Positions 25,253-45,328 of a stretch of 64,000 bases of DNA are shown here, in pieces. This DNA comes from Marivibrio halodurans (GTDB lineage Bacteria; Pseudomonadota; Alphaproteobacteria; UBA8366; Aestuariispiraceae), in assembly GCF_017963645.1 (NCBI RefSeq), contig NZ_JAGMWN010000004.1:248001-312000 (forward strand). The letters run 5' to 3'. Position 1 is the stretch's first letter, and every line of letters begins with the position of its first letter. The notes under the pieces are model-generated. The model saw only the letters and a program-made list of their open reading frames with translations. It searched no databases and was not told where the DNA came from. The position numbers were made by a program, and so were the translations under genes.

Positions 25253-25292
25253 GCCGTCGCTTCTTCTCCTCCTGAATGAGTTGGACAATCGC

Positions 25293-26692: not shown

Positions 26693-27884
26693 CGTCTACA
26701 TTTGCGACTACGTGCGCACGCCCTTCGGCCGTTACGGCGGCGCGCTTTCTCCTGTGCGGGCCGACGATCTCGGTGCGGTCCCGATCCGGGTTCTGCTGGA
26801 ACGTAATGGCTCGCTCGACCCTGAGCGTATCGACGAGGTACTCTTCGGATGCGCCAATCAGGCGGGTGAGGACAATCGCAACGTCGCTCGGATGTCCTCG
26901 CTTCTCGCCGGTCTTCCCGACTCTGTCCCAGGCGCCACGATCAATCGACTTTGCGGTTCCGGAATGGACGCCGTTGGCTCCGCCGCTCGAATGATTGCGA
27001 CCGGTCAAGGCGACCTGGCGATCGCCGGTGGAGTGGAGTCGATGAGCCGCGCGCCGTTCGTCATGCCGAAAGCGGATACGCCGTTCTCACGGAAAGCGTC
27101 CATCGAGGACACGACCATCGGTTGGCGCTTCGTGAACCCGCTGATGAAGGCGCAATGCGGTACGGACAGTATGCCGGAGACGGCGGAGAATGTCGCCGAG
27201 GATTTCAATATCTCCCGTGAGGATCAGGACCTATTCGCGGCAACCTCGCAGGAGCGCGCGGAGAAGGCGAAGGAATGGCGGAGCGGTGAAATCACTTCGG
27301 TCACGATTCCCAAACGTCGCGGCGACCCTATCGTCGTTTCCGGAGATGAGCATCCGCGCCCTGGGACGACCGTCGAAGCGCTCGCCAAGTTGCCGGCCCC
27401 TTTCCGGGAGAACGGATCCGTCACCGCGGGTAACGCCTCTGGCGTGAACGATGGCGCCGCGGCGCTTCTGCTCGCCAGACCGAGTGCAGTCGAGGAGCAA
27501 AATCTGAAGCCGATGGCGAAGCTGGTCGGCATGGCGACCGCTGGTGTGCCGCCTCGGATCATGGGCTTCGGCCCAGCTCCCGCTAGTCGGAAGCTTATGG
27601 AACGGTTGGGGTTGACCATCGGAAGCTTTGATATCATCGAACTCAATGAAGCGTTCGCCGCCCAGGCCTTGGCGGTGACCCGCGACCTGGGCCTTCCGGA
27701 CTTCAGCGACGTCGTGAATCCGAACGGCGGCGCCATCGCTCTCGGGCATCCGCTCGGCGCCTCCGGTGCGCGGCTCGTGGGAACCGCCGCGCGCATGCTT
27801 TCCGAAGGCAAGGGAAAGCGGGCCCTTTGCACGATGTGCATCGGCGTTGGCCAGGGAATCTCAGTCGCGCTTGAGGCCTGTTGA
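26685..27884 (+). CDS. pcaF: 3-oxoadipyl-CoA thiolase
   Basis: A 399-residue thiolase that splits 3-oxoadipyl-CoA to succinyl-CoA and acetyl-CoA. The nucleophilic Cys is in INRLCGSGMDAV near residue 90. GHPLGASGARLVGTA holds the active-site His, and CIGVGQG the second Cys near the C-terminus. Start YICDYVRTPFGRYGGALS is the PcaF pattern. Confidence 0.94.
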   Translation: MLDVYICDYVRTPFGRYGGALSPVRADDLGAVPIRVLLERNGSLDPERIDEVLFGCANQAGEDNRNVARMSSLLAGLPDSVPGATINRLCGSGMDAVGSAARMIATGQGDLAIAGGVESMSRAPFVMPKADTPFSRKASIEDTTIGWRFVNPLMKAQCGTDSMPETAENVAEDFNISREDQDLFAATSQERAEKAKEWRSGEITSVTIPKRRGDPIVVSGDEHPRPGTTVEALAKLPAPFRENGSVTAGNASGVNDGAAALLLARPSAVEEQNLKPMAKLVGMATAGVPPRIMGFGPAPASRKLMERLGLTIGSFDIIELNEAFAAQALAVTRDLGLPDFSDVVNPNGGAIALGHPLGASGARLVGTAARMLSEGKGKRALCTMCIGVGQGISVALEAC

Positions 27885-27975
27885 GGAGCCGGCGGCACCT
27901 CAACCGGTCATCCACTTGGCGGCCGGGCGCTGCCCCTTATGCCACTCTCGGCAAGTCCTACCGGGGATAAGAGAT

Positions 27976-28758
27976 ATGCAGTTCTGTAATGCTAACGGCA
28001 CCACCCTTCACTACTCGACGCGGGACGGAGATACGAACCGTTGTCCAATCGTCTTTCTCAATTCGCTGGGAACAGATCTGAGGATCTGGGACGACGTCCT
28101 TGATTATCTCCCTGATGACATTCCCGTGCTCCGGTTGGATAAGCGCGGGCATGGGCTCTCGGATATCGGTCCCTGCAGCATCCCGATCCTCGCGGACGAC
28201 GTGTCGTCGGTCATGGAGGTGGTTGGGTTCGGCCCCTCGCTCATCTGCGGCGTCTCAGTAGGCGGCCTCATAGCCCAGCAATTCGCTCTATCTAACCCCG
28301 ATCTCATACGTGGACTTGTGCTGAGCAACACCGGTGCGAAAATCGGCTCTGACGAAGTGTGGAACTCTCGTATTGAAGCTGCCCGCGCCAAGGGAATCGG
28401 GCCGATCGCTGACGCCGTGCTAGAGCGTTGGTTTTCTCGCTCTTTCCTTCAGAATTCGCGTCTACAGGTCGCTGGTTACCGAAATATGCTGTGCCGAACG
28501 ACGGTGGAGGGTTACGTGGATGTCTGCGCCGCCATCAGGGACACCGATCTTCGGAGCGCTGTCGGAGCAATCAACGCGCCATCCATTTGTATCTCTGGAA
28601 GCGAGGACCTCGCGACGCCGCCCGACCTTCTGAAAGAGCTATCCGAGCTTATCCCTGGTTCAGACTATCGATGCATTGAGGGCGTTGGACACATCCCGTC
28701 CATCGAGGCGCCGAGGACAGTGGCCCGCATCGTCATGGATGCATATGGGAAAATCTGA
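27976..28758 (+). CDS. pcaD: 3-oxoadipate enol-lactonase
   Basis: A 260-residue alpha/beta-hydrolase that opens 3-oxoadipate enol-lactone. LNSLGTDLRIWDDVLDYLP is the usual PcaD oxyanion region. The nucleophile Ser is in GVSVGG, the acid lies in SGSEDLATPP, and the His in GVGHIPSIEAP. The frame is open further upstream into pcaF, but the ATG at 27976 fits the family. A 91-bp gap precedes it. Its stop shares one base with the pcaB start. Confidence 0.92.
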   Translation: MQFCNANGTTLHYSTRDGDTNRCPIVFLNSLGTDLRIWDDVLDYLPDDIPVLRLDKRGHGLSDIGPCSIPILADDVSSVMEVVGFGPSLICGVSVGGLIAQQFALSNPDLIRGLVLSNTGAKIGSDEVWNSRIEAARAKGIGPIADAVLERWFSRSFLQNSRLQVAGYRNMLCRTTVEGYVDVCAAIRDTDLRSAVGAINAPSICISGSEDLATPPDLLKELSELIPGSDYRCIEGVGHIPSIEAPRTVARIVMDAYGKI

Positions 28759-29810
28759 TGCCGTCAGTCTTCGGACATTCCTATCTCGGCGATCTCTTTG
28801 ACGATTCTGAAGCGTCGGAGATTTGGTCGGCTGAGCGTCAGATCAAATTAATGCTGCTCTTTGAGGCCGCGTGGTCGCGTTCTCTGGGGGACGCGGGCGT
28901 GATCTCCGACGACGACGCCGAAAAGGCCGCGATGGCGATTGAGACCTTCGAGCCGGATGTCGAGGCCATTGCGCGCGAGACAGCCCGCGACGGCCTTCCC
29001 GTTCCTGAGTTGGTGCGGCAGTTAAGAATGCACGTTGGCCCGCTGGAGGGCTGCGTTCACCGAGGAGCTACCTCGCAGGACGTAATCGACACCGCGCTTG
29101 CTCTCACCATCGGCGCAACGCTTGATCGCCTCCAAACTCGTACAAGTGCGCTTGATCGGGACCTTGATGGCGTCATCGCGCGATTTGGCGGCCGGCACTT
29201 GATGGCCAAGACACGTATGCAAGCGGCGAAGCCAATAACCGTCGCCGATCGGGTGTCCGTCTGGCGCGGGTCGTTCGCGGCGTGCGCGGATCGGATCGAC
29301 GGCGTACGCACGCGCGCCGTTCGTCTCCAGTTCGGCGGAGCGGTCGGCGATCGAAATGTCTTGGACGGCAAGGCGAGCGCCGTGGCGGCGGCGATGTCCC
29401 GGCGCCTCGGTCTCCCTGATCCTGGTCGTGCATGGCATGCCGATCGAGCAGGAGTCGTTGAGTTCGCGGACCTTCTATCCGCTATATCGGGCGCCTCGGG
29501 AAAAATGGGGCAGGATCTGTGCTTGATGGCCCAGGCGCGGGGCGATGAACTGAAGCTTTCGGCAGGCGGGCGGTCCTCCGCCATGCCCCACAAGAACAAC
29601 CCCATTCTAGCGGAACTCCTCGTCACGTTGGCACGGTTCAACGCGACGCAGGTTGGGGCGATGCACCAAGCCTTGGTTCACGAGCAGGAGCGCTCTGGGG
29701 CGGCATGGGTGCTCGAATGGATGGTGCTGCCGCAAATGGCCGAAGTCAGCATGCGTTCCCTCGCCGCGGCCAGGGAGTTGCTCTCCAAGATAGAAGCCTT
29801 GGGCGCCTGA
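28758..29810 (+). CDS. pcaB: 3-carboxy-cis,cis-muconate cycloisomerase
   Basis: A 350-residue member of the fumarase/aspartase superfamily that lactonises beta-carboxymuconate. CVHRGATSQDVIDTAL and GGRSSAMPHKNNPILAEL (the SS-MPxKxNP signature) are present. It is at the short end of PcaB lengths because the C-terminal extension of some homologues is absent. It is the last gene of the plus-strand operon that starts at the phthalate oxygenase, completing the pathway gene set. Confidence 0.93.
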   Translation: MPSVFGHSYLGDLFDDSEASEIWSAERQIKLMLLFEAAWSRSLGDAGVISDDDAEKAAMAIETFEPDVEAIARETARDGLPVPELVRQLRMHVGPLEGCVHRGATSQDVIDTALALTIGATLDRLQTRTSALDRDLDGVIARFGGRHLMAKTRMQAAKPITVADRVSVWRGSFAACADRIDGVRTRAVRLQFGGAVGDRNVLDGKASAVAAAMSRRLGLPDPGRAWHADRAGVVEFADLLSAISGASGKMGQDLCLMAQARGDELKLSAGGRSSAMPHKNNPILAELLVTLARFNATQVGAMHQALVHEQERSGAAWVLEWMVLPQMAEVSMRSLAAARELLSKIEALGA

Positions 29811-30336: not shown

Positions 30337-30921
30337 TCACTTCAAGAATACAATACTCATTGGCTCAAGTTTCTTCTCCTTCCGCCAATCATTTAACCTA
30401 TTTTTGAATGAGCCAGGGGTTTCTTCAAATGAAGAATAGTCATCAGTGTGAATGACTAGATAGCCTTCTCGATTAAAGAAATCAGAGTTAAAGAAGAACG
30501 AAACGATCCCGAAAATTTGACGATCTCGCGCGCTGTCGATCCAGACGAATCCTTTTTCATCGCAACTATGAGACCGGCAGGCGCTAAAAAAAATCGTCGA
30601 TTGGTCGGTTATATCGATATCGTCGGGCGCCCCACCGAGTACGGATCGCAAATGATACTCAAAATTCTGGGCATCATTTTCTCCCGTCATTCCAAGATAT
30701 AGCGGATCATGGTGTGTAATATTCCGATCCAGGAAAACGTCAATCTCGTCCGACCATATAAGACGATTGGTATTGAAGTATTGGTTCGTCTCGACGTTAT
30801 GCCGAACCCAATCGTAAAACTCCAAATTGGACTGACTCCCGGCAGAACCATTTTTGCTGACCAGGGTCATCATCAGGGTGAGGGAAAATATTAGAAATTG
30901 ACTGGCGGCGATGATCCGCAC
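30337..30921 (-). CDS. Secreted protein of unknown function (atypical AT-rich gene)
   Basis: About 194 residues from a GTG at 30921 with GGGAGG six bases upstream; an ATG at 30936 is the alternative. The first 25 residues form a signal peptide (RIIAASQFLIFSLTLMMTLV). The mature part is acidic and rich in Phe and Tyr. A CRSHSC segment precedes EKGFVWIDS. The paired Cys with His loosely recalls the CKPHDC loop of Ivy-type lysozyme inhibitors, but the rest is not recognisably Ivy. Base composition is far lower in GC than every neighbour, so it was probably acquired horizontally. Confidence 0.6.
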   Translation of the reverse strand: MRIIAASQFLIFSLTLMMTLVSKNGSAGSQSNLEFYDWVRHNVETNQYFNTNRLIWSDEIDVFLDRNITHHDPLYLGMTGENDAQNFEYHLRSVLGGAPDDIDITDQSTIFFSACRSHSCDEKGFVWIDSARDRQIFGIVSFFFNSDFFNREGYLVIHTDDYSSFEETPGSFKNRLNDWRKEKKLEPMSIVFLK

Positions 30922-31170
30922 CTGCTGACCTCCCATCCTTATTTATACTATATATGGGCATCATATTCGCGCGAAACCGTGGCGGAAACCAATCCACTTT
31001 GTTCTCCCGCCCTCTCGCGGCTTGATCCGTTTCCAGAGCATTCATCCTGTGCATGGCGGCATAACCGGGAAAGTGTCGATAATTTTCTATAATTATTCAT
31101 GGGTCGATCTTCTTATTGACGGAATATAAAGTAAAAATTTCTCCATAATAATTAAGCATATATAGAATAA

Positions 31171-33795
31171 TTATTTTCCTAATGACGAACCCTCGAATAG
31201 TAGGCGTATTTCTTCCAAGAGCAGACCGCCGGGCTCGGCGAGTGTCTGGCTGATCTCGAAATGGTTGAGACCGGCGCCGTGGACCAGACTCGCGGCGACG
31301 CCACGGGCCCGCAGGGCCGCGTGATAGGCCTGGGTCTGGCGCAGGAACTCGGGCGATTCCTCCGTGCCGACGGCGAGGCGGACAGGGCAACGGATACGCT
31401 CGGCGCCGGTCGCCGCACCGCAGGCATCGATATCGGCCGGCCCCAGGTCCAGATAGCGACCCCGCGCGCTTAACATCACGGGGGTAAGGTCGTAACCGCC
31501 GCTCGCCAGCAAGGCCCCCGCCACCGGAGCATCCCGGCCATAGGTCGCCCGCCAGTCCGCCGTCAGTGCCGCGCCGGCGACATGGGCGCCGGAGGAATGC
31601 CCGACCAGCATCAGCCGGTCCGGATCGAGGCCGAGTTCGGCCGCGTTATCCCTTACCCAAAGGCACGCTTCCCGGACACGTTCGATCATTCGGGGCAACG
31701 TGCTATCCGGTCGCCGCCCGAAATTCACCGCCACCGTCGATATACCCAGATCGGCGAACGCCGGTGCCATCCACCCGGACTCGTCCTTGCTCAATAGCTT
31801 CCAGGCGCCGCCATGGATATAGATCACCGCCGGTTTCAACGGGGCGTCGCCCCGGCCGGAATAGACATCAAGCCGCTCCAACGGATCGCCCCCATAGGCG
31901 AGGTCCAGGGTGACCCGTTCGCTTTCACGGGCGGCCCGTGTCGCCTCGTCATACCAGCGGATGATGTCCTTGGCGTTCCCGGCCCAGGCCATCTGATCGT
32001 AGGCCCGGTCCAGCCCCGCTTGATCATAGTGCAGGAAAACCGCCTCCGAGGGGTGGTTCGATGCCGGCGCCCCTTCGCTCCGCGCGTCGGAACCGGTAAG
32101 CGTGGGCGAGAACAATCCCCCCTCGTCCAGAACCACCCTGCCCCCGACGAGCGCGGCCTCCGCGCGAATATCCCAGAGCGCCGCCTCCTCGCACCGTATG
32201 GGATCGTCGGACAGCACGACCATATCCGCCCAGGCGCCAGGCTTCAGCCGCCCGCGCCGCGCTTCGTCGAATGTCAGGAAGGCCCCCCCCACGGCGGCGG
32301 CGCGCAGGGCCTCCTCGCGGCTCAGGGCCTGATCGGCGGCGATCGTCTCCGCCTCCGGGTGCGCCTTTCGGGTCACGCAATGGGCGAATGGTCCGAACAG
32401 GCCGACGGGGTGATTGTCGCTGGACAGCGCGAACGGCACGCCCGCTTCCATCAGCGCGCGCGCGGGCGCGATGCGCCACGCCTCATCCACGCCCAACCGC
32501 GCCGCCTCGCGCGGGCCGATATCGGCGATGGAGCGGTTCGTGTGCAATGTCGCGACGATCCCCAGATCGCGCATCTTGGCGATCTTTTCCCGATCCAGGA
32601 TACCGACATGCCCCACCACCCAACGCAGATCGCCGATGGGGCGGATATGGTCGGCCTCGCGGAACAGGTCCAGATCCTCCGCGAACAGGGTGCAGAGCCG
32701 GAAGCCCTGCCTGGCGCCCTCCAGAACGAATTCACGGAACAGCGAGCGTGGCATCGTGGATTCGAAGGTATATCCCGCCCATCCGGTATAACCGCACTGT
32801 CGGCAAAGATCGGGCGACGGCTTTCCCGCCTGGGCGTAGAAGCCCGCCGCGCGCATCATATCGTCGCCGAGCCCCCGTCCCCGGGCCCAGGAATACCACG
32901 CGTCCATCGCCGCCCCGATATCCCCCGGCGGGGTATCGCCCCAGGCCGGCCCGACGGCCAATCGAACCCGCAGGTCGAGACGTTCCGCCTCCCGCGCGTC
33001 GCGATAAAGCGCGAGCAATTCCGGTGAGGCGCCGTGCCCCTCGAACACCGCGGTGGCCCCGCCCCGCAGATAGGCCCGCATCGAAGGGCCCAGGGCATCC
33101 GCGCGCTGACCGGCCGTGAAGCGGCTCGCCCCCGGCAACAGCGTCATTTCAACGGCGGACACCGGCCCCGGTTCCTTGAATACGCCGGTCGGTCGGCCGC
33201 GCGCATCGCATTCCAACGCCACGCCGGCCGGAAGGTCGCGCACCGAATCCGCCAGCCCCATGGCCCGCAACGCCGCGCTGTTGGCGATCGATATCAGGGG
33301 GGTGCCATCACCGGCCGGACGCCAATACCCCCACGGCGCACGGATATAGACGGCGGTGTCGGGACAGGCCGCATCCAGATCGTCGCGCGTCGGCAACCGG
33401 CCTTCGGCCAAGCCCTTGGCCGGGTCACCGGCATAGGCCGGACCAGCACCCAACGGCCCCATCACCACCCACGCGCCGGGCGCCGCCCCGCGCGCGGCGG
33501 CGGCGACGCGATGCTGAACCTCCACGATGGAGGTGGCTCCATGCAGGGACGGCATGGCCGCCTTCAACCCTTCGCGGTCCATATGCGCGTGCCCGTCGGT
33601 AAGGCCCGGCGTCACGCACCGGCCTTGCAGGTCCACCCGCGCGACCCGCGGATCATAAGCGCCCGGAAGGGAATCGAGAGGGCCAAGCGAAAGGATACGC
33701 CCATCGCGAACCTCCATGGCCGAGACGACATCCGGTCCGCTCTCGTCCAAGGTCCGGATCACCCCGCCATGCAGGATGACGTGCCCGTCGATCAC
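31171..33795 (-). CDS. Fusion protein: amidohydrolase (YtcJ-like) plus alpha/beta-hydrolase
   Basis: One uninterrupted frame of 874 residues. Residues 1 to about 560 are an Amidohydrolase_3/YtcJ-like metal hydrolase: TDGHAHMD (67-73) supplies the first metal ligands, VVGHVGI and SSDNHPVG the later His/Asp sites, and GRLKPGAWADMVVLSDDP the beta-sandwich return. Residues about 585-874 are an alpha/beta-hydrolase: oxyanion HGGAW (661-665), nucleophile Ser734 in GHSSGAH and His845 in LNHFE, like arylformamidase/esterase proteins. The GTG start overlaps the TRAP permease stop by 4 bp. Two sequential hydrolyses of an imported amide or ester are plausible; a kynurenine-formamidase-like role fits the dioxygenase nearby but is inference. 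Confidence 0.82.
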   Translation of the reverse strand: MIDGHVILHGGVIRTLDESGPDVVSAMEVRDGRILSLGPLDSLPGAYDPRVARVDLQGRCVTPGLTDGHAHMDREGLKAAMPSLHGATSIVEVQHRVAAAARGAAPGAWVVMGPLGAGPAYAGDPAKGLAEGRLPTRDDLDAACPDTAVYIRAPWGYWRPAGDGTPLISIANSAALRAMGLADSVRDLPAGVALECDARGRPTGVFKEPGPVSAVEMTLLPGASRFTAGQRADALGPSMRAYLRGGATAVFEGHGASPELLALYRDAREAERLDLRVRLAVGPAWGDTPPGDIGAAMDAWYSWARGRGLGDDMMRAAGFYAQAGKPSPDLCRQCGYTGWAGYTFESTMPRSLFREFVLEGARQGFRLCTLFAEDLDLFREADHIRPIGDLRWVVGHVGILDREKIAKMRDLGIVATLHTNRSIADIGPREAARLGVDEAWRIAPARALMEAGVPFALSSDNHPVGLFGPFAHCVTRKAHPEAETIAADQALSREEALRAAAVGGAFLTFDEARRGRLKPGAWADMVVLSDDPIRCEEAALWDIRAEAALVGGRVVLDEGGLFSPTLTGSDARSEGAPASNHPSEAVFLHYDQAGLDRAYDQMAWAGNAKDIIRWYDEATRAARESERVTLDLAYGGDPLERLDVYSGRGDAPLKPAVIYIHGGAWKLLSKDESGWMAPAFADLGISTVAVNFGRRPDSTLPRMIERVREACLWVRDNAAELGLDPDRLMLVGHSSGAHVAGAALTADWRATYGRDAPVAGALLASGGYDLTPVMLSARGRYLDLGPADIDACGAATGAERIRCPVRLAVGTEESPEFLRQTQAYHAALRARGVAASLVHGAGLNHFEISQTLAEPGGLLLEEIRLLFEGSSLGK

Positions 33796-35747
33796 GGCCG
33801 GTCCCCCACTCCGGCGCGGCGCGCGCCGAGATAGTTCATCACGCTCAACGCCGCGCCGAGGCAAAGCCCCGCCACATTGGTCAGGATCAAGGTCTGACCG
33901 TCCGGCGGCAACAGCAGGAGAAGGCTGGATAGGAGGAAACCGAGCCGTTCGGCGAGTCCGGTCCGGCGGAACAGATACCCGACGCATCCGACCGCCAGGA
34001 GCCCGACCGCGATCATCGTCGTGACGGCCGCCAGCACGATATCCGCCGGCGCCCCCTGCATCAGCAATTCCGGGTGATAGACGAAGATGAACGGAACGAT
34101 GTACGCGACGATCCCGAAGCGCATTCCCAACAGGCCGGATTTCCAGAAATCCGCGTCCGCGATGGAGGCCGCGGTATAGGTCGCGATGCATACGGGCGGC
34201 GTGATCATCGACAACATGCCGAAATAGAAGATGAAGAAATGCGCCGCCATGGGCTCGACGCCGAGCTGAACCAACGCCGGCGCGATCAGAACCGCGAGCA
34301 TGACGTAGATAACCGTCGTGGGCATCCCCAAGCCCAGCACGATGCATGCCCCCGCCGTCAGGATCAGCATGAGCAGAAGCTGGCCGCCTCCGGCCTCGCT
34401 CAACATCAAGGAGAACTTGAATGTGAGGCCGGAGAGCTGCAGGCCGCCAATCACGATACCGGCCAGGATGCTCATGATCACGAGTGATAGCATGATACGG
34501 CCGGAGGTTCTGAGACATGTCAGGATCGCGCCGGGCGTCATGCGCGTATCCCGGAAGATGAATCCGGCGAGCAGCGCCACGCCGGCCGCCGCCACCCCGG
34601 CCTTGCCCGCCGGCCAACGCGCGATCAGCAGCGTATAGATCAACACGACGATCGGCAGGAGATAGATCCACCCCCGATTCATGACGCCGCGCAGCTTCGG
34701 CAGCGCGTCCTTGGAGAAGCCGGTCAGATTATCGCGCGCGGCCTCCAGGTCGACCTGAAGCAGAAGGGAAAGATAATACAGCAACGCGGGGAGAGCGGCC
34801 GCCACGACGATATCGAGATATGGGACGCCCAGATACTCGGCAATGATAAAGGCCGCGACCCCCATGACGGGCGGCATGATCTGACCGCCGGTGGAGGTGA
34901 CCGCCTCGATCGCGGCGGCGGATTCACCGCGATACCCGCTGCGCTTCATCATCGGGATGGTCAGGCTGCCGCTGACGACGACGTTGGAAACCGCGCTGCC
35001 GGATACGGTCCCGAACAGGCTGGACGACAGGACGGCGACCTTGGCCGTACCGCCCCGATAGCGCCCCAGAAGCGACAAGGCGATATCGGTGAAGAACCGG
35101 TCGCCCTTGATCCCGAACAACACCTGCCCGAACAGGATGAAGGAGACGACGACAGTCGCCGTCACCGATAGCGTCACGCCCAGGATACCGTTCGAATCCA
35201 GGAAGACATAGGTCGCGATCCGTTCCGGGCTGCTGCCCCGGCCGTTCAGGAAGCCGGGGAGGTAACTGGCGGCGAATGCATAGACGCACACGGCGAGCGC
35301 GAGCCAGATCAACGTCCAGCCCAACAGCCGCCGCGTCGCCTCAAGCGTCAGGAGGATCGCGAGGAAGCCCAGCAAATATCTTTCGGGGGAAAGCGACGAG
35401 AGGGAATAGGCGACATCGGGATACCACAGCGCGATATATCCGCCGACCGCGACACCGCCGAGCGACAGCAGCCAATCCACGAACGGAACCTTGTCGGCGG
35501 TCTCGGTCTTCGTGCGCCGGCACGTCAGGAAGGTAACGGCGAAGGTCGCGCCGAGGAACGCGCCCAGGAACTGCTCACGAAACACGGGAAAGGGAAGATA
35601 GTATTGAAGCTCCGCCGCCCAGGCCACGCCCATGGCGACCAGCAGAATTAGCAACCCGCTCGCCACCGCGCCTTCGGCGCCGCGCAAGGAACGGAACCGC
35701 CTGTCCAGTCCGCTCTCCGGCTGTTGCGTCTGTGACTGCTGCTGCAT
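33792..35747 (-). CDS. TAXI-TRAP transporter fused permease
   Basis: A 651-residue membrane protein with fused DctQ-like and DctM-like parts. VTSTGGQIMPPVMGVAAFIIAEYLG and VLGLGMPTTVIYVMLAVL (shortened) are the two conserved repeat motifs. Its start is ATG at 35747. It lies 93 bp after the TAXI binding-protein gene and is translationally coupled to the hydrolase fusion gene, so the importer and the hydrolase probably handle the same compound. It is clearly diverged from the 21562 permease. Confidence 0.92.
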   Translation of the reverse strand: MQQQSQTQQPESGLDRRFRSLRGAEGAVASGLLILLVAMGVAWAAELQYYLPFPVFREQFLGAFLGATFAVTFLTCRRTKTETADKVPFVDWLLSLGGVAVGGYIALWYPDVAYSLSSLSPERYLLGFLAILLTLEATRRLLGWTLIWLALAVCVYAFAASYLPGFLNGRGSSPERIATYVFLDSNGILGVTLSVTATVVVSFILFGQVLFGIKGDRFFTDIALSLLGRYRGGTAKVAVLSSSLFGTVSGSAVSNVVVSGSLTIPMMKRSGYRGESAAAIEAVTSTGGQIMPPVMGVAAFIIAEYLGVPYLDIVVAAALPALLYYLSLLLQVDLEAARDNLTGFSKDALPKLRGVMNRGWIYLLPIVVLIYTLLIARWPAGKAGVAAAGVALLAGFIFRDTRMTPGAILTCLRTSGRIMLSLVIMSILAGIVIGGLQLSGLTFKFSLMLSEAGGGQLLLMLILTAGACIVLGLGMPTTVIYVMLAVLIAPALVQLGVEPMAAHFFIFYFGMLSMITPPVCIATYTAASIADADFWKSGLLGMRFGIVAYIVPFIFVYHPELLMQGAPADIVLAAVTTMIAVGLLAVGCVGYLFRRTGLAERLGFLLSSLLLLLPPDGQTLILTNVAGLCLGAALSVMNYLGARRAGVGDRP

Positions 35748-35840: not shown

Positions 35841-36908
35841 TTATTCGCTCAGCTCGGCCTGTACCGCATCCATCTCGTCGTTCCAGGCATCCAGCGCGAT
35901 ATAGGCGTTCTTCGCGCCCTCATGATAGGGAAGCGTGGCATCGGAACGAACCGTGGTCGCCTGCTTCCAGCCACGCAGAACCGGATGGAACTCGGCCAGC
36001 TTATCGGCATTCTCGTAAAGCGTCTTGGCCACGATCTCCACCATGTCGTCGGACATGGAGGATGCGGCGACGAGATAAAGCGGATAGGCCGTGATGCAGG
36101 TGTCCTCGACGATACCGGGAAGCCGCCCCTCGGGAAGGGTGATGAAACCGTATCCCGGGATGGCATCGGTCACCCGCTTCTTCGCCTCGGCGCTGCAATC
36201 GTCGGGCAGGAAGCGCACGCCGACGGCGGCATCGACCTCACGCACGCGCGGGGCGCCCACGCCATAGACGGCACCGTCGACGCGGCCGTTGGCCAACGCG
36301 TCCAAGCCCTGGTTCAACCCGGCGACCGGCGTCACCTTGACGTCGTCCCAGGTCAAACCCGCATTCAGAAGATGGGCGTATGAATTGATGTACGCGCCCA
36401 AATGCGCCGGGTAGGACCCGCCAAGCTGCGCGTCGGCCAAGTCCGCCACCGTCTTCATTTCACTGTCCTTGCGGACCAACATCCCGGCGATCAAATTGGC
36501 GCCGGATGCGACAAGACGCAGGCCCGGCGTCTGCGGATAGGGATTCCGGTCGCCAATCTTCAGACGATCGGGGCCCCGATAGCTGAGCGCGAAGTCGACA
36601 CTGGGCGCGAGCCCGAATTCGACCTCGCCGCTATCCAGGACGGGGAAGAACGCGGTCGTCCCCGAATAGGGACGCACGACGAAATCGGCCTCGAGATTGT
36701 CAGTAAGCACCTTCGCAACCGCCGAGGCGATCGTATGCTGCAGCGATCCCGACTGACCGGCCGCGATATAGACGGTATCCGGCAGCTCCGCGGCCTGCGC
36801 CGGCCGCACGCCGACGACGGCCGCCAAGGCGAACGCCCCGAAGGCCGCGCCTTTCGCGAGGCCGCGCGCCGCGCCGCCTGCCCACTTTATCCCAATCCTG
36901 GATTTCAT
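35841..36908 (-). CDS. TAXI-family TRAP solute-binding protein
   Basis: A 355-residue periplasmic protein. An unusually long n-region precedes the hydrophobic signal segment, with cleavage near AQA-AELPD (about 38). The mature start VYIAAGQSGSLQHTIASAVAKVL and RPYSGTTAFFPVLDSGEVEFGL are TAXI-type ligand-binding segments. GGAGGG precedes the ATG. It is the first gene of the minus-strand trio binding protein - permease - hydrolase fusion. The ligand is not predictable from sequence. Confidence 0.9.
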   Translation of the reverse strand: MKSRIGIKWAGGAARGLAKGAAFGAFALAAVVGVRPAQAAELPDTVYIAAGQSGSLQHTIASAVAKVLTDNLEADFVVRPYSGTTAFFPVLDSGEVEFGLAPSVDFALSYRGPDRLKIGDRNPYPQTPGLRLVASGANLIAGMLVRKDSEMKTVADLADAQLGGSYPAHLGAYINSYAHLLNAGLTWDDVKVTPVAGLNQGLDALANGRVDGAVYGVGAPRVREVDAAVGVRFLPDDCSAEAKKRVTDAIPGYGFITLPEGRLPGIVEDTCITAYPLYLVAASSMSDDMVEIVAKTLYENADKLAEFHPVLRGWKQATTVRSDATLPYHEGAKNAYIALDAWNDEMDAVQAELSE

Positions 36909-36999: not shown

Positions 37000-37089
37000 G
37001 GAGCCCGCCCGGATACCGGATGGCGGACGCGCCCGGCCGGTGCTGCTTTCAACGAGTTCCCAGACGTCGAAAGTCGGATGCCCGGCCAT
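37000..37089 (-). pseudogene. Truncated 3-hydroxyanthranilate dioxygenase-like N-terminus
   Basis: From the ATG at 37089 the frame reads MAGHPTFDVWELVESS and then RARPPSG. The dioxygenase at 40136 begins MAGHPTLKPF and has KKWVEEN and LRPPVGN at the same places. Similarity ends after about 30 codons and the frame then runs into unrelated DNA and the TAXI gene in another frame. It is best read as a relic left by duplication of the promoter region. It could still be translated as a leader peptide. Confidence 0.6.
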
Positions 37090-37149
37090 TCTTCCTCCAA
37101 GCCGTTGGGCGGTCCGGCACGCCCTCCGGGAACCGCGCCCATCGGAGAA

Positions 37150-37214
37150 GGCTAGGGGAAATTGAATACAAGAAATATTTGTTTCTGGGAATTTCGATAT
37201 CCAGATAGCTGATA
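37150..37214 (-). promoter_or_regulatory. Conserved 65-bp upstream element, copy A
   Basis: Ungapped match to 40760-40824 (53 of 65). On the minus strand it includes GGATATCGAAATTCCCAGAA, close to the other copy's GGATATCGGAATTCCCAGAA. It is a candidate LysR-type binding site, probably for the regulator at 42828. Confidence 0.5.
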
Positions 37215-37256
37215 ACCAAGGGGACGCCCAACGTCTTTTCCAATGCCGCCCGGATT

Positions 37257-38516
37257 TCAGATCAAGGACGTCGTGATGGCGGGATAGCGGCTCAACAGGA
37301 CGAGCACGACCGCCACCGCGATCAGGAACGGCCAGAGAGAGCGCAGGATCGTGCCGGGCTTCGCCCCGCTCATCGACGAGGCGATATAGAGCCCCACGCC
37401 GACCGGCGGCGTCAGCAGGCCCAAGACGAGGTTCAGGCAAATCACCACGCCGAACTGATAGGGGCTGATGCCGAAATCGTTCATCGCGATGGGAAGCAGG
37501 ATCGGCGTGAACAGGATGACCGCAGCGATACCGTCGATCAGCATTCCAACGACAAGCAGCACGAGATTGACGATCAGCAGGAACAGGAACGGATCGCTGG
37601 TGATCGTCGAGAGCAGCGCGGCCAACTTCTGCGGCACGGCCTCGTAGATGATCACCCAACCGAAGACATTTGCGGCGGCGATCATGAAGATGATCGTCGA
37701 TGCATTGACGGCGGTTCGCTTGAACAAGCCGAACAACGCACGCGGGTCGAGCTCGCCATAGACCAGCCATCCGACAAGGAACGCGATCAGGGAAGCGATG
37801 GCCGCGGATTCCGTCGGCGTGGCGATACCGAACAGGATGCCGCCGATGATCGCGGTCGGGATAAGCATCGCCGGCAAGCAATATAAAAGGGCGGACAAGG
37901 CCTCCGCCCGCGTGAACCAGCGCCCTTGGGGAAAGCCCTGGAAAACGCCGATCGAGAAGATCACCACCGCGAAGGCGGCCACCAGCAGCAAGCCGGGCAG
38001 AATGCCGGCCAGGAACATCTCGCCGATCGGAACCTGGGCCAGGACGCCGAAGATGACGAACAGCATGGACGGCGGAATGACCGGCGCGAGCAACCCGCCC
38101 GCCGCCGTGATCGCGGCGGCGAAGCCCTTGTCATAGCCTTCCTTCTCCATCTCGGGCGTCATCGCGCGCGCCATGACGGAAATCTGCGCGTTGGCGGACC
38201 CGATGATCGCCGCCATGAACATGTTGGCCAGAAGGTTGATATAGGCGAGTCCCCCCCTGAACCCACCGACAAAGACCCGCGCGGCATTGATGAGGCGCCT
38301 CGTCATGCCGCCTTCGTTCATCATTTCCCCGGTCAACATGAAGAGGGGAATGGCGAGCAGGCCGTAATTTTCCAACCCGGAGAACATCTTCTGGGCGAAG
38401 CTGTCATAGAGGACCGCGTTATCGCTTTCCCAGATGTACCAGATCGCGGAAAGCGCCAGGACCAGCGCGACCGGAACCCCGATCAGAAGCTTGAAGGCGA
38501 AAATCAGCGGCGTCAT
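37257..38516 (-). CDS. dctM: TRAP transporter large permease subunit (DctM)
   Basis: A 419-residue DctM-family permease with about 12 hydrophobic helices. ITAAGGLLAPVIPPSMLFVIFG and LGLLTPPVGVGLYIASSM are the two conserved half-motifs. The ATG at 38516 overlaps the DctQ stop by 4 bp. It completes the DctP-Q-M set at 37.3-40.1 kb. The substrate is probably an aromatic or dicarboxylic acid handled by the neighbouring dioxygenase module; this is inference. Confidence 0.93.
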   Translation of the reverse strand: MTPLIFAFKLLIGVPVALVLALSAIWYIWESDNAVLYDSFAQKMFSGLENYGLLAIPLFMLTGEMMNEGGMTRRLINAARVFVGGFRGGLAYINLLANMFMAAIIGSANAQISVMARAMTPEMEKEGYDKGFAAAITAAGGLLAPVIPPSMLFVIFGVLAQVPIGEMFLAGILPGLLLVAAFAVVIFSIGVFQGFPQGRWFTRAEALSALLYCLPAMLIPTAIIGGILFGIATPTESAAIASLIAFLVGWLVYGELDPRALFGLFKRTAVNASTIIFMIAAANVFGWVIIYEAVPQKLAALLSTITSDPFLFLLIVNLVLLVVGMLIDGIAAVILFTPILLPIAMNDFGISPYQFGVVICLNLVLGLLTPPVGVGLYIASSMSGAKPGTILRSLWPFLIAVAVVLVLLSRYPAITTSLI

Positions 38517-39052
38517 GCGCTTACCTCGGGATCGGTTCCCCGCCCGCCAAGCAGATTGGCGAGGCCGTGCAGCGTGACGCCGAACGCGAACACCCACATG
38601 ACGCCCCAAACCCAGATTTTCCGGATACCCAGCGTCGTCGTCGGCTCGGCATAGATGAAGTTGAAGGTCGCGCCCTGGAACGCCCCGGTATCGAACCCGT
38701 GCCGGGCCAGTTCCAACGGCGAGAACCACCGCCAGCAGAACCACAGCATGAACAGCGCGAAGATCAGCACGAGAAGATCGACCAGCTTGGCCGCGAGCTT
38801 CGCGAAGGGGGTGGGAAGCGCGTCCGTCACCACCGTCACCGCGACCGCATGCCCGTAATGCAATCCCGCCGACGCGCCGAGAAAGGTCATCCACGCCATG
38901 GCGTAGATCGCCAGTTCATCCACCCAATATAGCGCCGAACCGACCGCCCGGGTGACCACATTGAGCAGGATGAGCACGGTAATGGAAACGGCGAGGAGGG
39001 CCGCCAGGGCCAGTTCGATCCGTGCCCATGCCGCGGAAATGCGCCCGACCAT
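38513..39052 (-). CDS. dctQ: TRAP transporter small permease subunit (DctQ)
   Basis: A 179-residue membrane protein with four hydrophobic helices. The conserved WVDELAIYAMAWMTFLGASAG segment of DctQ proteins lies near residues 43-63. It precedes and overlaps dctM and follows the DctP gene by about 60 bp. Confidence 0.92.
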   Translation of the reverse strand: MVGRISAAWARIELALAALLAVSITVLILLNVVTRAVGSALYWVDELAIYAMAWMTFLGASAGLHYGHAVAVTVVTDALPTPFAKLAAKLVDLLVLIFALFMLWFCWRWFSPLELARHGFDTGAFQGATFNFIYAEPTTTLGIRKIWVWGVMWVFAFGVTLHGLANLLGGRGTDPEVSA

Positions 39053-39114
39053 ACCCGACCTTCCGAGAACGCGCCGGGCGCGCGTCCGTCACGCGCCCGG
39101 CGCCGCCGATGGCA

Positions 39115-40699
<1,585 letters not shown>

Positions 40700-40759
40700 G
40701 GCTCCCTCCCGATCGGTCGACGGCCTCCCGCGCGCCGAAACCTCGCACATCTCAACCGA

Positions 40760-40824
40760 GGCTAGGCGAAATTGACAGAAAGAAGTATTTGATTCTGGGA
40801 ATTCCGATATCCCGAATTCTGATA
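40760..40824 (-). promoter_or_regulatory. Conserved 65-bp upstream element, copy B
   Basis: Lies 61 bp before the dioxygenase ATG. It shares 53 of 65 bases with 37150-37214. GGATATCGGAATTCC on the minus strand is also similar to GGATATCGAAGTTTTC at 41967-41982. It is a candidate binding site of the LysR regulator at 42828. Confidence 0.5.
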
Positions 40825-40906
40825 GCGGGCGCCGCCACCGGGCAGAACGCCAAGTTGCGCCCGCGCAACGATGCACGGCCTTCCTTCTGCCAGGGGCCGC
40901 CCGCGG

Positions 40907-41860
40907 TCAGATCTTCAGGCCGCACCCTTCGAACGCCGCCTTCGTCGCGGCCTTCTCGGCATCGGTCAACTCCAGCATCGGATGCCTTACGCGGCCGCCG
41001 ACTTGCCCCAGCAATTCCTGCCAGTACTTACCGTGCGCGGTGGGCTTGCCCCCCGGTTTCGTCGTGCTGATCGCCTGACGCACGGGATCGAGACTGTCGC
41101 GCACCCGGCGCGCCTGATCGAACCGCCCGGCAAAGGCCAGTTCGGTATATTCATGCATCCGCCGGTCATTGCGGGTCTGAAGCTGATAAGGCGGTGACGA
41201 GCAAAGATAGAGTTGCCAGCCCAACTCCTCGATATTGTCGAGCCAATCGTCCTCCCTGGAGGTCGAGACCAGGATCTTGTCGCCGACGAGCTTCGTCAGC
41301 CGCGCATACATCTCCCGGGGGACGGAGTATTTGATCGCCATGATGTTCGGCAACTCCGCGATCCGGGCGCAGGTCTCCGGCTCCATCAAATAGCCGCTGT
41401 CCGGGTGGCTCCACATGGCGATGCCGATATCCAGCCGGTCGCAGAGATATTTGTAATAATTATAGAGCACCTCGTCCCGATCGTGGCAGAAGCTCAACAT
41501 CGGCGCATGGACGACCACGTAATCGGCGCCGCATTCCTGCGCATGCAGCCCAAGGTCCAGAACGGTGTCCACATTCTGGTCCGAGATCGACATGATCGTG
41601 CCGGCCTTGTCGCCGCACTCCTCGACCGCGACGGTCATGTTGCGCTTGCGCTCCTCGAGGGACATGGACCAGAACTCGCCCTGCTTCCCCGCGATGAACA
41701 GACCCCGAATCTCCAGGTCGTCGATCCAGTGCCGAATATTCCGGCGCAGTCCCGCCTCGTCTAGGACCAGGCTTTCGTCGAACGGGTTCAGGGCGGCGGC
41801 CCAAATGCCGCGCATCGTCTCCCGGGCATGGGCTTTGGCTTCGTGCTTGGCGTATTTCAT
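40907..41860 (-). CDS. Dihydrodipicolinate-synthase-family lyase/aldolase
   Basis: A 317-residue class I aldolase-type TIM barrel. The Schiff-base Lys is about K177 in NIMAIKYSV. The usual GTTGE motif is replaced by GKQGEFW and the YNxPxRTG motif by MWSHPDSGY, so it lacks the canonical catalytic Tyr context and is not a lysine-pathway DapA. Closest in style are hydratase-aldolases and other pyruvate lyases of aromatic degradation. ATG at 41860 with GGGAGG upstream. It is divergent from the 42036 gene and probably acts after ring cleavage; the substrate is unknown. Confidence 0.85.
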   Translation of the reverse strand: MKYAKHEAKAHARETMRGIWAAALNPFDESLVLDEAGLRRNIRHWIDDLEIRGLFIAGKQGEFWSMSLEERKRNMTVAVEECGDKAGTIMSISDQNVDTVLDLGLHAQECGADYVVVHAPMLSFCHDRDEVLYNYYKYLCDRLDIGIAMWSHPDSGYLMEPETCARIAELPNIMAIKYSVPREMYARLTKLVGDKILVSTSREDDWLDNIEELGWQLYLCSSPPYQLQTRNDRRMHEYTELAFAGRFDQARRVRDSLDPVRQAISTTKPGGKPTAHGKYWQELLGQVGGRVRHPMLELTDAEKAATKAAFEGCGLKI

Positions 41861-41966
41861 TCCTCGCCTCCCTGATCTGGAACCGACCATGCGCGGGTAC
41901 CGAACCCGCCCTTACCGTGAATAAGGGCCGGGCGCCCCCCACGAACCAATCCTTTTGGGAAGAAAT

Positions 41967-41982
41967 GGATATCGAAGTTTTC
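41967..41982 (+). promoter_or_regulatory. Candidate LysR-type site between divergent genes
   Basis: GGATATCGAAGTTTTC resembles the core of the two 65-bp elements upstream of the dioxygenase and TAXI genes. It lies midway between the lyase gene (minus) and the aspartate-dehydrogenase-like gene (plus). Confidence 0.35.
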
Positions 41983-42035
41983 TATATCGAGCCTCCCTGA
42001 GTTTCAGATACGTTAGGGTTAAGCGGAGGTGGAAA

Positions 42036-42818
42036 GTGGTTATCGGTATCATCGGTCGAGGCGCTATCGGGCGCTATGTCTCGGACACTCTCACGGCGCG
42101 GGGTATCGGGCCTCGAACGGTTCTCGTGCGGGCGAACCGCATGGGCGAGCCGCCCCGGGACGGCCCCCTCCATGTCGACACCGTCGCGGACTTGCCGGAC
42201 GATACGACCCTGATGATCGATTGCGCGGGCCATGCCGCGCTTTCGGAGCATGGCCCGGCCATCCTGGAAAGGGGCATCGATCTCGTCACGGTATCGCTCG
42301 GCGCCCTGGCGGATCAGGCGCTTCACGACAGGCTTCGGGCCGCCGCCGAGGCGGGCCAGGCGCGGCTTCGCCTGGCAAGCGGCGCCATAGGGGCCTTGGA
42401 CTCCCTGCAAGCGGCACGCGTCGGCGGGCTGGATCGTGTCACCTATATCGGCCGCAAGCCGCCTTCCGGGTGGAAGGGCTCTCCGGCCGAGGAGCACCTG
42501 GACCTCGATGCGTTGAACGAGGCCACCACGCATTTCGCGGGGTCGGCGCGTGAAGCGGCATTGCGCTACCCCAAGAACGCCAATGTCGCGGCCGCGGTCG
42601 CATTGGCCGGCGCCGGTTTCGACGACACGCGGACGGAACTGATCGCCGATCCGGCATCGACGGCCAATATCCATGAAATTCATGCCGAAGGGCGCTTCGG
42701 GACCTTCTCCTTTCGGATCGAGGGCCGGGCGCTTCCCGACAACCCGCGCAGTTCCGCCCTGGCCGCCATGAGCGTGATCGCGGCGGTCGAGCGGGAGCGG
42801 GCGCCGATAACGATCTGA
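42036..42818 (+). CDS. nadX: Aspartate-dehydrogenase-like protein (NadX/DUF108 family)
   Basis: A 260-residue protein with N-terminal Rossmann motif GIIGRGAIGRYV and the family's C-terminal KNANVAAAVALAGAGFDDT plus HEIHAEG. Characterised NadX enzymes reduce iminosuccinate or oxidise L-aspartate. I chose the GTG at 42036 because GGAGG lies 6 bp upstream. In this cluster it may act on an amino acid or imine formed from the amino-muconate skeleton, or release ammonia; this is inference. The LysR gene follows after 9 bp. Confidence 0.82.
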   Translation: MVIGIIGRGAIGRYVSDTLTARGIGPRTVLVRANRMGEPPRDGPLHVDTVADLPDDTTLMIDCAGHAALSEHGPAILERGIDLVTVSLGALADQALHDRLRAAAEAGQARLRLASGAIGALDSLQAARVGGLDRVTYIGRKPPSGWKGSPAEEHLDLDALNEATTHFAGSAREAALRYPKNANVAAAVALAGAGFDDTRTELIADPASTANIHEIHAEGRFGTFSFRIEGRALPDNPRSSALAAMSVIAAVERERAPITI

Positions 42819-42827: not shown

Positions 42828-43793
42828 ATGGCAACCTGTCACACGCGGATCGTCGAACGCGCCCTGACCCGCCTGAAGCTGCGCCAACTTCGGCTTCTGG
42901 TGGCCGTGGGGAAACATGGCAGCATTCAAAACGCCGCCCGCGACCTTGGCGTATCCCAACCCGCCGCGACCAAGATGATCCAGGACCTCGAATTCGATTT
43001 CGAGGTGAAGCTGTTCGAGCGCACGAATCGCGGCGTGGTGCCGACCGTATTCGGCGATACGCTGATTCGGCACGGAAAACTGATCTTCACGCAGGTCTCG
43101 AACGCGGCGCAGGAACTCGACGATCTGAGCGAGGGCAATAGCGGCCGGGTCGTCGTCGGCACGCTCCTGGCTGCATCCCCGACCCTTCTTCCCGTCGCTA
43201 TCGAACAGGTCCTGAAGGACCGCCCGAAGGTTGCCATCAAGATCGTCGAGGGAACCAACGAGGTGCTAATGCCCGCGCTTCTGTCGGGCGAAATCGACAT
43301 GATCGTCGGGCGCCTGCCGAGCCATAGGCACCGCGCGAAGATCGTCCAGGAAAAGTTCTTCGACGAACGGATACTGGCCGTGGCGGGCCCTCAACATCCG
43401 CTCGCCGAACGCGCCGGGGTGACGTTCGAGGAACTTACATCGCACGGATGGATTCTGCCGCCCGTCGAAACGACGCTGCGCCGGCAAACCGATCAGTTCT
43501 TCGTCCTTCAAGGACAGTACGTGCCGACGGTCGCGATCGAGTCCGTCTCCTATCTCGCCAACCGATCCTTGATGCGCATGCATGACTTCGTCGGGCTCAT
43601 GCCGGCGCATGTCGCCTCCCTGGACATCGAAAAGGGCCTTCTCGCGCGGATCGACTGGGAGGTCCCCTTCGGCGCCGGGCCGGTGGGGGTTTCCCATCGC
43701 GGCGAGCAAAGCCTCTCTCCCGCCGGGGCGGCTTTCCGCGACGCCTTGAAGCAAGCGGTGCAGGATATCCAATCAAGTACCGTCCCGGCCTGA
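42828..43793 (+). CDS. LysR-family transcriptional regulator
   Basis: A 321-residue LTTR. The N-terminal winged helix-turn-helix covers about residues 17-75 (LKLRQLRLLVAVGKHGSIQN and SQPAATKMIQDLE). The effector domain starts with GRVVVGTLLAASPTLLP. It is co-transcribed with the NadX-like gene. It lies centrally in the 31-45 kb module and is the best candidate for binding the GGATATCG elements. A 14-bp palindrome, GCCTGATATCAGGC, covers its stop codon at 43788-43801. Confidence 0.9.
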   Translation: MATCHTRIVERALTRLKLRQLRLLVAVGKHGSIQNAARDLGVSQPAATKMIQDLEFDFEVKLFERTNRGVVPTVFGDTLIRHGKLIFTQVSNAAQELDDLSEGNSGRVVVGTLLAASPTLLPVAIEQVLKDRPKVAIKIVEGTNEVLMPALLSGEIDMIVGRLPSHRHRAKIVQEKFFDERILAVAGPQHPLAERAGVTFEELTSHGWILPPVETTLRRQTDQFFVLQGQYVPTVAIESVSYLANRSLMRMHDFVGLMPAHVASLDIEKGLLARIDWEVPFGAGPVGVSHRGEQSLSPAGAAFRDALKQAVQDIQSSTVPA

Positions 43794-43891: not shown

Positions 43892-45328
43892 ATGAGCAGC
43901 TATCCGGACTTGCATCTCTACATCGGCGGAGAATGGCGGAAGACCGCGACCGATCTGCCGGTGCTGAACCCCGCGACGGAGGAAGAGATCGGCCGATTGC
44001 CGCATGCGGAGACATCCGATCTCGACGATGCGCTGACGGCCGCGCAGGACGGTTTCCGGATCTGGAGCCGCACCGCGCCGCGCGACCGCGCCGACATCAT
44101 CCTGAAAGCGTCGGCGCTGATGCGTGAGCGCCAGGAGGATATTGCGCGGGCCATCACCGCCGAGCACGGCAAGCCGTTGGCGCAGGCGCGGCTCGAAGTC
44201 ATCCGCGGCTGCGAGTTCTTCGAATGGGACGCGGGCGAAGCGGTCCGGACCTATGGCCGCGTGATCCCGTCGGCCCGGGGCATACGCTATATCGTTCATC
44301 ATCAGCCGATCGGCGTGGTGCTCGGCCTGTCGCCCTGGAACTTCCCGATGAGCCAGCCGGCGCGCAAGATCGCGGGCGCGCTGGCCTCGGGCTGCTCGAT
44401 CATCCTGAAGGCCGCCGAGGAGACCCCCGCCGGCGCCTTGCACATCGCCAAGGCCTTTCACGACGCGGGCCTTCCGGCCGGGGTCCTGAACCTGGTCTTC
44501 GGAACCCCCGCCGATATATCCGACCATCTGATCCGTCAGGAACCGGTGCGTCTGGTGGCCTTCACCGGATCGACCGCCGTCGGCCGTCATCTGACGACGT
44601 TGGCGTCCAACCATATGACCCGGGTCCTGATGGAACTTGGTGGCCACGCGCCGGTCATCGTGTGCGAGGACACGGACGCGAAAAGGGCGGCGGTCAGCGG
44701 AGCCGTGCGAAAGTACCGGAATGCCGGACAGGTATGCACCTCCCCCACCCGCTTCTTCGTTCACGAAAGCCTGTTCGAACCGTTCCTGGAAACCTTCGTG
44801 AAGCGCGCGGCCGCGACCACTGTCGGCAATGGCGCCGAACCGGGCGTCGAGATGGGGCCGCTCGCCAACGAGCGCCGGGTTCCCGCGCTTGCGGAACTGG
44901 TCGAGGACGCCCGCGCCAAGGGCGCGGACCTTCGCACCGGGGGAAGCCGTATCGGCAATGTGGGATATTTCTTCGAGCCGACCGTTCTGGCCAATGTGCC
45001 CGATGATGCCCGGGTGATGCGGGAGGAGCCCTTCGGCCCACTGGCCGTGATCAATCCCGTCGCCTCGCTGGACGAAGCCATCGAGAGAGCCAACGCGGTT
45101 CCCTTCGGCCTCGCCGCATACGGCTTCACCAACCGTGCCGACTATGCCGACCGGATGACCGACGAGGTCGAGGCCGGCAATCTGTCGATCAACACCCTGG
45201 AGGCATCGCTTCCCGAAACGCCTTTCGGTGGCGTGAAGTCCAGCGGGTACGGCCGCGAAGGCGGCACGGAGGGATTGGAGAATTACATGATCGTCAAGAA
45301 CATCTCCCATAGCATGGACATCGTCTGA
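43892..45328 (+). CDS. NAD(P)-dependent aldehyde dehydrogenase (SSADH-like)
   Basis: A 478-residue ALDH. SPWNFPMSQPARKIAGALA, the catalytic Glu in MELGGHAPV, the catalytic Cys in NAGQVCTSPTRF, and EEPFGPLAVI are visible. The sequence resembles succinate-semialdehyde and 2-oxoglutarate-semialdehyde dehydrogenases, class members that also include aminomuconate-semialdehyde dehydrogenases. In this module it could oxidise a semialdehyde produced after ring cleavage by the dioxygenase and cleavage by the lyase. It is 98 bp from the LysR gene. Confidence 0.92.
   Translation: MSSYPDLHLYIGGEWRKTATDLPVLNPATEEEIGRLPHAETSDLDDALTAAQDGFRIWSRTAPRDRADIILKASALMRERQEDIARAITAEHGKPLAQARLEVIRGCEFFEWDAGEAVRTYGRVIPSARGIRYIVHHQPIGVVLGLSPWNFPMSQPARKIAGALASGCSIILKAAEETPAGALHIAKAFHDAGLPAGVLNLVFGTPADISDHLIRQEPVRLVAFTGSTAVGRHLTTLASNHMTRVLMELGGHAPVIVCEDTDAKRAAVSGAVRKYRNAGQVCTSPTRFFVHESLFEPFLETFVKRAAATTVGNGAEPGVEMGPLANERRVPALAELVEDARAKGADLRTGGSRIGNVGYFFEPTVLANVPDDARVMREEPFGPLAVINPVASLDEAIERANAVPFGLAAYGFTNRADYADRMTDEVEAGNLSINTLEASLPETPFGGVKSSGYGREGGTEGLENYMIVKNISHSMDIV

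Follow-up and report, generated by a model that had tools for sequence, protein, structure and literature searches.

The stretch of DNA analysed here, 64,000 nucleotides from Marivibrio halodurans (contig NZ_JAGMWN010000004.1, positions 248,001 to 312,000) and referred to in the following as the window, contains on its minus strand a gene in which an amidohydrolase and an alpha/beta-hydrolase are joined in a single chain. The reading frame is uninterrupted from a GTG at 33795 to a TAA at 31171; an open reading frame (ORF) finder places the start further upstream because the frame is also open within the neighbouring TRAP permease gene. The gene and its parts are:

31171..33795, minus strand: fused amidohydrolase / alpha/beta-hydrolase gene, 874 amino acids, GTG start
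32125..33783, minus strand: amidohydrolase domain, residues ~5-557, with conserved H69, H71, R74, G76, E252, H254, H396 and D460
32113..32115, minus strand: in-frame TTG, codon 561, a candidate internal start of the hydrolase by its sequence only, with the purine-rich GAGGGGGGA directly upstream
32047..32103, minus strand: disordered linker, residues 565-583, pLDDT <50
31189..32040, minus strand: HGGxW alpha/beta-hydrolase domain, residues ~586-869, with H661-G662-G663-x-W665, S734, E813 and H845

Both halves are recognised by Pfam, the first as Amidohydro_3 (PF07969; residues 54-555, 162.8 bits against a cut-off of 29.7) and the second as BD-FAE (residues 642-741, 66.0 bits against 26.8) and Abhydrolase_3 (residues 657-773, 56.6 bits against 25). 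An AlphaFold model of the whole protein, built on a 19-row alignment, has a mean pLDDT of 86.8 and a pTM of 0.64, and both domains are mostly confident. The second species of the genus (genome G007, the sole other genome of the genus within the family search; locus L004, record JANSXE010000007) shows the identical architecture in a single 870-residue open frame, with 55% identity overall, 58% in the amidohydrolase part (Amidohydro_3, 208.4 bits) and 52% in the hydrolase part, and the linkers of the two fusions are of unequal lengths. In the window the GTG start shares 4 nt, as GTGA, with the TRAP permease stop codon, and the TRAP and fusion ORFs of L004 (5992-7989 and 7986-10598) share 4 nt as well. 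Measured over blocks of 100 codons, third-position GC varies little within either fused gene (0.76-0.87 and 0.74-0.85). The preliminary description of the window, made from its letters, had proposed a one-chain fusion coupled to a TAXI-TRAP permease; the 874-residue frame and the same fusion in L004 bear out the former, and the gene overlaps in both species agree with the latter. The frameshift at the junction that it had named as able to overturn the proposal was not borne out, given the in-frame fusion in the second species and the even third-position GC.

Homologues of the amidohydrolase half were found by tblastn at 48 loci above 150 bits, which represent 39 distinct homologues once nine second copies (L027, L073, L075, L077, L078, L079, L081, L082 and L083) are left out; they come chiefly from Alphaproteobacteria and Burkholderiales, with one from a Tectomicrobia bin. 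Two, both from the one genus, are fused, two have a separate adjacent hydrolase gene (L005; L039/L073), and the remaining 35 have no hydrolase-half match above 60 bits in the DNA examined, a weak negative for the many with flanks of about 1.5 kb. The order search (43 genomes, E 1e-60) gave full-length matches in two genomes, that of the window (G000) and G007, and no further full-length single-frame fusion was found in samples of the class (385 genomes, 1e-45) or the phylum (398 genomes, 1e-80), which overlap in some genomes and in both of which two candidates per genome were scored. Among plasmid records, 13 reach E 1e-30, none of them with 80% coverage of the query. With two fusions among 39 homologues and none on the plasmids, the domain order is uncommon within what was searched, and from the sequences at hand we conclude that the fusion is genuine and rare. 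A 934-residue frame in L046 (G163) was rejected as a further fusion: its excess lies upstream, where by eye an enoyl-CoA-hydratase-like gene seems to occupy a different frame, and its amidohydrolase is not followed by a hydrolase.

Unfused pairs occur at two distant loci. In L005 (Rhizobiales AFS050986; 41/43% identity to the two halves) the amidohydrolase ends in TAA and, three bases later, a TTG opens the hydrolase ORF in the same frame. In L039/L073 (G049; 39/35%) the two genes lie in different frames, and the gene order is LysR - XDH (xanthine dehydrogenase) large subunit - DHDPS - TAXI - TRAP permease - amidohydrolase - hydrolase, that is, the order of L004 minus the dioxygenase. The preliminary description had held that two genes with a start codon at the junction in close homologues would count against it; separate genes exist in these distant homologues, but the closest homologue is fused. 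In trees of either half the two fusions form a fully supported pair; the hydrolase-half tree groups this pair with L005, L023 and L022 (95/94), and the amidohydrolase tree gives no resolution for its position among the other homologues. These sequences are read most economically as one event in the genus ancestor that joined two operon genes lying side by side, and we infer the direction to be fusion and not splitting.

The closest solved folds of the hydrolase half are lipase 9n8r (Z 32.4), 2pbl (Z 30.9) and Drosophila kynurenine formamidase 4e15 (Z 28.8; 272 aligned residues, 2.9 A, 18% identity), in keeping with the arylformamidase/esterase-like character first ascribed to it, though esterase/lipase entries score above the formamidase. 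All 26 hydrolase homologues have HGGxW, which we take to be a mark of kynurenine formamidases, as well as S734 (GHSSG) and an acidic residue at position 813 (Glu in 24, Asp in two); H845 is present in 25, the lone exception being a cut segment. With 4e11/4e15 and the esterases 9n8r and 2pbl this half shares the alpha/beta-hydrolase fold, the GxSxG Ser and HGGxW, and it differs in its fusion to an amidohydrolase and in having Glu813 as the acid. A Ser-acid-His triad is described for eukaryotic kynurenine formamidases in the accessible portion of PMC4243253. The best NCBIfam model for the fusion is HaHSL_fam (NF058665; 90.8 bits, under its cut-off of 320), and the 18 NCBIfam families listed for it include no formamidase. 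Bifunctional GH43-CE 6mly is likewise a two-enzyme chain with a related C-terminal esterase (E 3.4e-10), but its named partner is a glycosidase (GH43). In L022 (186-2946) a stand-alone relative of the hydrolase (45%) precedes an amidase-signature gene (AtzE-like, under cut-off), not an amidohydrolase.

Among solved structures the amidohydrolase half is closest in fold to 3igh and 3icj (Z 36.3/35.4), two uncharacterised hydrolases that we take to be YtcJ-like. H69 and H71 (the beta-1 HxH), R74, G76, E252, H254, H396 (beta-6) and D460 (beta-8) are present in all 39 homologues. Two positions that belong to the canonical YtcJ metal site have no counterpart in the alignments. The Lys of 3icj VKLFVDG aligns in the profile alignment to the Y320 column, which holds Y in 23 homologues, F in nine, C in three, A in two, I in one, H in one and Lys in none; the beta-5 His of 3icj VHAIGD falls, by the same kind of alignment, in an insertion relative to the profile, and in columns 367-371 the residues listed, which account for 35-39 of the 39 rows in each column, include no His. 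It seems from these alignments that E252/H254 substitute for the lost metal ligands in this clade. The fused protein shares with Amidohydro_3/YtcJ-like proteins the fold, the HxH, the beta-6 His and the beta-8 Asp, and differs from them in the invariant E252/H254, in the absence of counterparts to the 3icj Lys and His and in the extra C-terminal hydrolase. The earlier statement that both active sites are intact stands for the hydrolase triad; in the amidohydrolase two canonical YtcJ positions are absent, with E252/H254 invariant instead.

Upstream of the fusion lie genes for two transporters and for the cleavage of 3-hydroxyanthranilate:

33792..35747, minus strand: fused TAXI-TRAP permease (TIGR02123, 610.5 bits, cut-off 320.65), its stop overlapping the fusion start by 4 nt
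35841..36908, minus strand: TAXI solute-binding protein (TIGR02122, 107.2 bits, cut-off 84.35)
37257..40128, minus strand: second transporter, DctM-DctQ-DctP TRAP genes
40136..40876, minus strand: 3-hydroxyanthranilate 3,4-dioxygenase (HAO; NF009763, 252.8 bits against 220; TIGR03037, 222.3 against 145.95)
40907..41890, minus strand: DHDPS-family aldolase/lyase (PF00701), 62-87% identity across the 10 plasmid loci opened
41955..42818, plus strand: aspartate dehydrogenase family protein (AspDH; NF009828, 346.6 bits, cut-off 177)
42828..43793, plus strand: LysR-type regulator (PF03466, PF00126)
43892..45328, plus strand: succinate-semialdehyde-dehydrogenase-like (SSADH-like) aldehyde dehydrogenase (ALDH), under NCBIfam cut-offs, with a homologue in eight of the 10 plasmid loci

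The HAO and DHDPS genes lie ~6 kb upstream of the fusion in the same direction, and the AspDH, LysR and SSADH-like genes are divergent. A neighbouring dioxygenase for (hydroxy)anthranilate had already been suspected, and the NCBIfam match names it as 3-hydroxyanthranilate 3,4-dioxygenase. DctM-DctQ-DctP homologues share a locus with HAO in L004, L064, L068, L099 and L100. Between DctM and TAXI, at 37006-37251, the sequence preceding HAO is present a second time together with the first HAO codons (67 bp at 84% and 30 bp at 87% identity; a protein match of 44% over residues 6-90); together with the position of HAO directly before TAXI in L004, this copy suggests a tandem duplication in which the second HAO was later lost. 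The XDH large subunit of L004 has seven homologues in the window genome and none in the window. Downstream of the fusion, an isolated 199-residue ORF (30337-30936) lies beside an AT-rich stretch, the protocatechuate/3-oxoadipate genes pcaH, pcaG, pcaI, pcaJ, pcaF, pcaD and pcaB (23891-29810, plus strand) are convergent with the fusion operon, and a second fused TRAP permease (21589-23280) has 38% identity to the fusion-coupled one.

The DHDPS, HAO and AspDH genes recur together elsewhere. A close DHDPS is present in 47 plasmid records, of which 10 were opened, picked for variety (L063-L072); all 10 have DHDPS, HAO, AspDH and a LysR gene, and eight have ALDH. The LysR proteins are 63-74% identical to that of the window in three loci and just 23-28% in seven. 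Kynureninase lies within the module loci L064, L070 and L072 by annotation and tblastn. L067 and L069 are annotated with PnbB/FMN-reductase/flavin-reductase-type genes in a nitrobenzoate-like set, of which family assignments confirm PnbB and reductases in L067 and one reductase in L069. L065, L066 and L071 have a related alpha/beta-hydrolase in the module locus (32-34% identity), and in L063 and L068 no kynureninase, nitrobenzoate-type or alpha/beta-hydrolase gene was recognised. The module also occurs in L099 and L100 (G012 and G010, two genomes from a different genus of the family to which the window belongs), where XDH and DctPQM accompany it but no amidohydrolase, hydrolase or TAXI match is present. 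Given that the module is constant and its companion genes vary, the TAXI - TRAP - fusion block appears to be one interchangeable front end of a 3-hydroxyanthranilate route. No 2-amino-3-carboxymuconate semialdehyde decarboxylase is named in the plasmid stretches shown, for which the gene tables are incomplete. The DHDPS - HAO - AspDH module, often with an SSADH-like ALDH or an XDH large subunit, is possibly an undescribed lower 3-hydroxyanthranilate pathway with interchangeable front ends. Neither the fusion nor this module was described in titles or abstracts among the matches listed, a search that mostly excludes subscription literature.

Combining the sequence data with the gene context, we suggest that the protein arose by fusion of operon genes and that its two halves successively cut an imported, acylated 3-hydroxyanthranilate-like compound whose product passes to the dioxygenase, a proposal to which we give an even chance. 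In this scheme, (i) the TAXI-TRAP system would import an N- or O-acylated (or cyclised) 3-hydroxyanthranilate-like compound, (ii) the amidohydrolase would act first and open or cleave one amide-type bond by means of a metal site formed by H69/H71/H254/H396/D460 (with E252), (iii) the hydrolase would then take off the acyl group that is left (formyl or ester) using S734-E813-H845, and (iv) the released 3-hydroxyanthranilate or close analogue would be cleaved by the dioxygenase of the same cluster. The flexible linker would join a divergent metal-dependent amidohydrolase to an HGGxW serine hydrolase of the kynurenine-formamidase/esterase type. The recurrence of the module together with the context supports, short of proof, that the fusion feeds the 3-hydroxyanthranilate dioxygenase; the substrate, the metal ligands, the order of the two steps and any channelling we infer.

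Several observations weigh against this proposal. Neither L005 nor the 18-kb L073 has an HAO match, and the amidohydrolase-hydrolase pair is therefore not strictly tied to the dioxygenase. In the 18 amidohydrolase loci L004-L021 (flanks of at most 8 kb, several shorter) HAO is found in L004 and L006 only, the latter being without such a hydrolase, so that the amidohydrolase family serves other contexts too. The hydrolases of L065, L066 and L071 belong, at 32-34% identity, to another branch of the hydrolase tree. A PnbB-family (4-hydroxylaminobenzoate lyase) gene on another contig of the genome (G000:C15:63015-63446; 171.9 bits, over cut-off) makes another source of 3-hydroxyanthranilate conceivable. 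Finally, the L005 genes lie in the same frame with one stop codon between them, so that they could be the split of an older fusion.

Among the alternatives, we regard it as unlikely that the fusion is without functional meaning, its halves acting independently and the hydrolase perhaps also being made separately from TTG 561, or from the ATG at codon 560 of L004. In-frame start codons are present at the junction in both fused genes, the one in the window behind the purine-rich stretch, so that an additional separate hydrolase product is possible; the linker is disordered and unfused homologues exist. On the other hand, the fused frame has been kept in two species at 55% identity with differing linkers.

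It is unlikely, to a slightly greater degree, that the amidohydrolase half catalyses a different metal-dependent reaction (deamination, decarboxylation, or the opening or closing of a ring) and not amide hydrolysis of the YtcJ kind. The absence of counterparts to the YtcJ Lys and beta-5 His and the invariance of E252 and H254 in 39 of 39 homologues would fit such a change, and the superfamily contains the ring-forming NatAM, which binds 3-hydroxyanthranilate according to the part of PMC7204872 drawn on here. Nevertheless, the nearest folds are those of the uncharacterised hydrolases 3igh/3icj, and HxH, H396 and D460 are retained.

We doubt that the hydrolase half acts as a genuine kynurenine formamidase, with the fusion handling N-formylkynurenine or a conjugate from tryptophan breakdown. 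The fold match to 4e11/4e15 would agree with such an activity, as would the kynureninase genes near stand-alone hydrolase relatives in L005 and, as a partial gene, in L023. In the window genome (G000, 99.6% complete), however, kynureninase (TIGR01814) and tryptophan 2,3-dioxygenase (TIGR03036) have no match at E 1e-3, and as judged by these families kynurenine would be a dead end; in the controls TIGR01814 matches 10 of 14 (two over cut-off) and TIGR03036 two of 14 (one over cut-off). Formylkynurenine, which the preliminary description had listed among candidate substrates, is for this reason an unlikely one. The NCBIfam results for the fusion, with HaHSL at 90.8 against 320 and no formamidase among the 18 families, point the same way, and the usual bacterial KynB has a different, zinc-dependent fold in the account given in part of PMC4243253. 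The L023 kynureninase (7278-7946) matches profile positions 204-399 only and stops where the stand-alone hydrolase gene begins; by its sequence it is truncated or rearranged.

A more specific version of the two-step scheme is very improbable: that the fusion serves the catabolism of 3-hydroxyanthranilate heterocycles, in which the amidohydrolase would open the ring of a benzoxazole-4-carboxylate-type compound, reversing the NatAM reaction, and the hydrolase fused to it would cleave the amide or ester so formed and pass 3-hydroxyanthranilate to the dioxygenase. The idea comes by analogy from NatAM, a benzoxazole-ring-closing enzyme that binds 3-hydroxyanthranilate. As far as described in the consulted part of PMC7204872, NatAM is a benzoxazole-forming amidohydrolase of nataxazole biosynthesis, and it differs from what is proposed here in acting in the biosynthetic direction. 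The PDB entries 'Amidohydrolase, AHS' (6sj0-6sj4) are presumably NatAM. The fused protein matches these entries at superfamily level only (6sj0, E 4.6e-6 by profile; best AHS row at Foldseek rank 30), and VIA-align has no 6sj entry among its 50 rows, which excludes nothing. If true, this version would mean that benzoxazole natural products have a degradation pathway of their own. That a frameshift or assembly error merged two genes, for which nothing speaks but the separate genes of the distant homologues L005 and L039, is extremely improbable and is rejected because the assembly of the second species has the same open fusion with a different linker, with third-position GC even along both genes.

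Returning to the proposed two-step cleavage of an acylated 3-hydroxyanthranilate-like compound, the fusion joins two known kinds of enzyme in what is, from their sequences, a sensible though putative role. Gene fusions are a pointer to enzymes that act successively on one molecule, and this one ties an amidohydrolase clade that has no close relative of solved structure, together with an esterase/formamidase clade, to a 3-hydroxyanthranilate cluster; the function of the amidohydrolase clade thereby becomes testable with a short list of substrates. In the 2-nitrobenzoate onb pathway of Cupriavidus ST-14, as outlined in the portion of PMC5817917 available, 3-hydroxyanthranilate is likewise cleaved by 3-hydroxyanthranilate dioxygenase and the next enzymes are a decarboxylase, a dehydrogenase and a 2-aminomuconate deaminase, whereas the dioxygenase of the window is accompanied by DHDPS-like, AspDH-like and SSADH-like genes. 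The presence of this DHDPS/AspDH/SSADH-like module on plasmids, with no decarboxylase for 2-amino-3-carboxymuconate semialdehyde being named in the stretches shown, suggests a lower route for 3-hydroxyanthranilate that is unlike onb and that may outweigh the fusion itself in importance.

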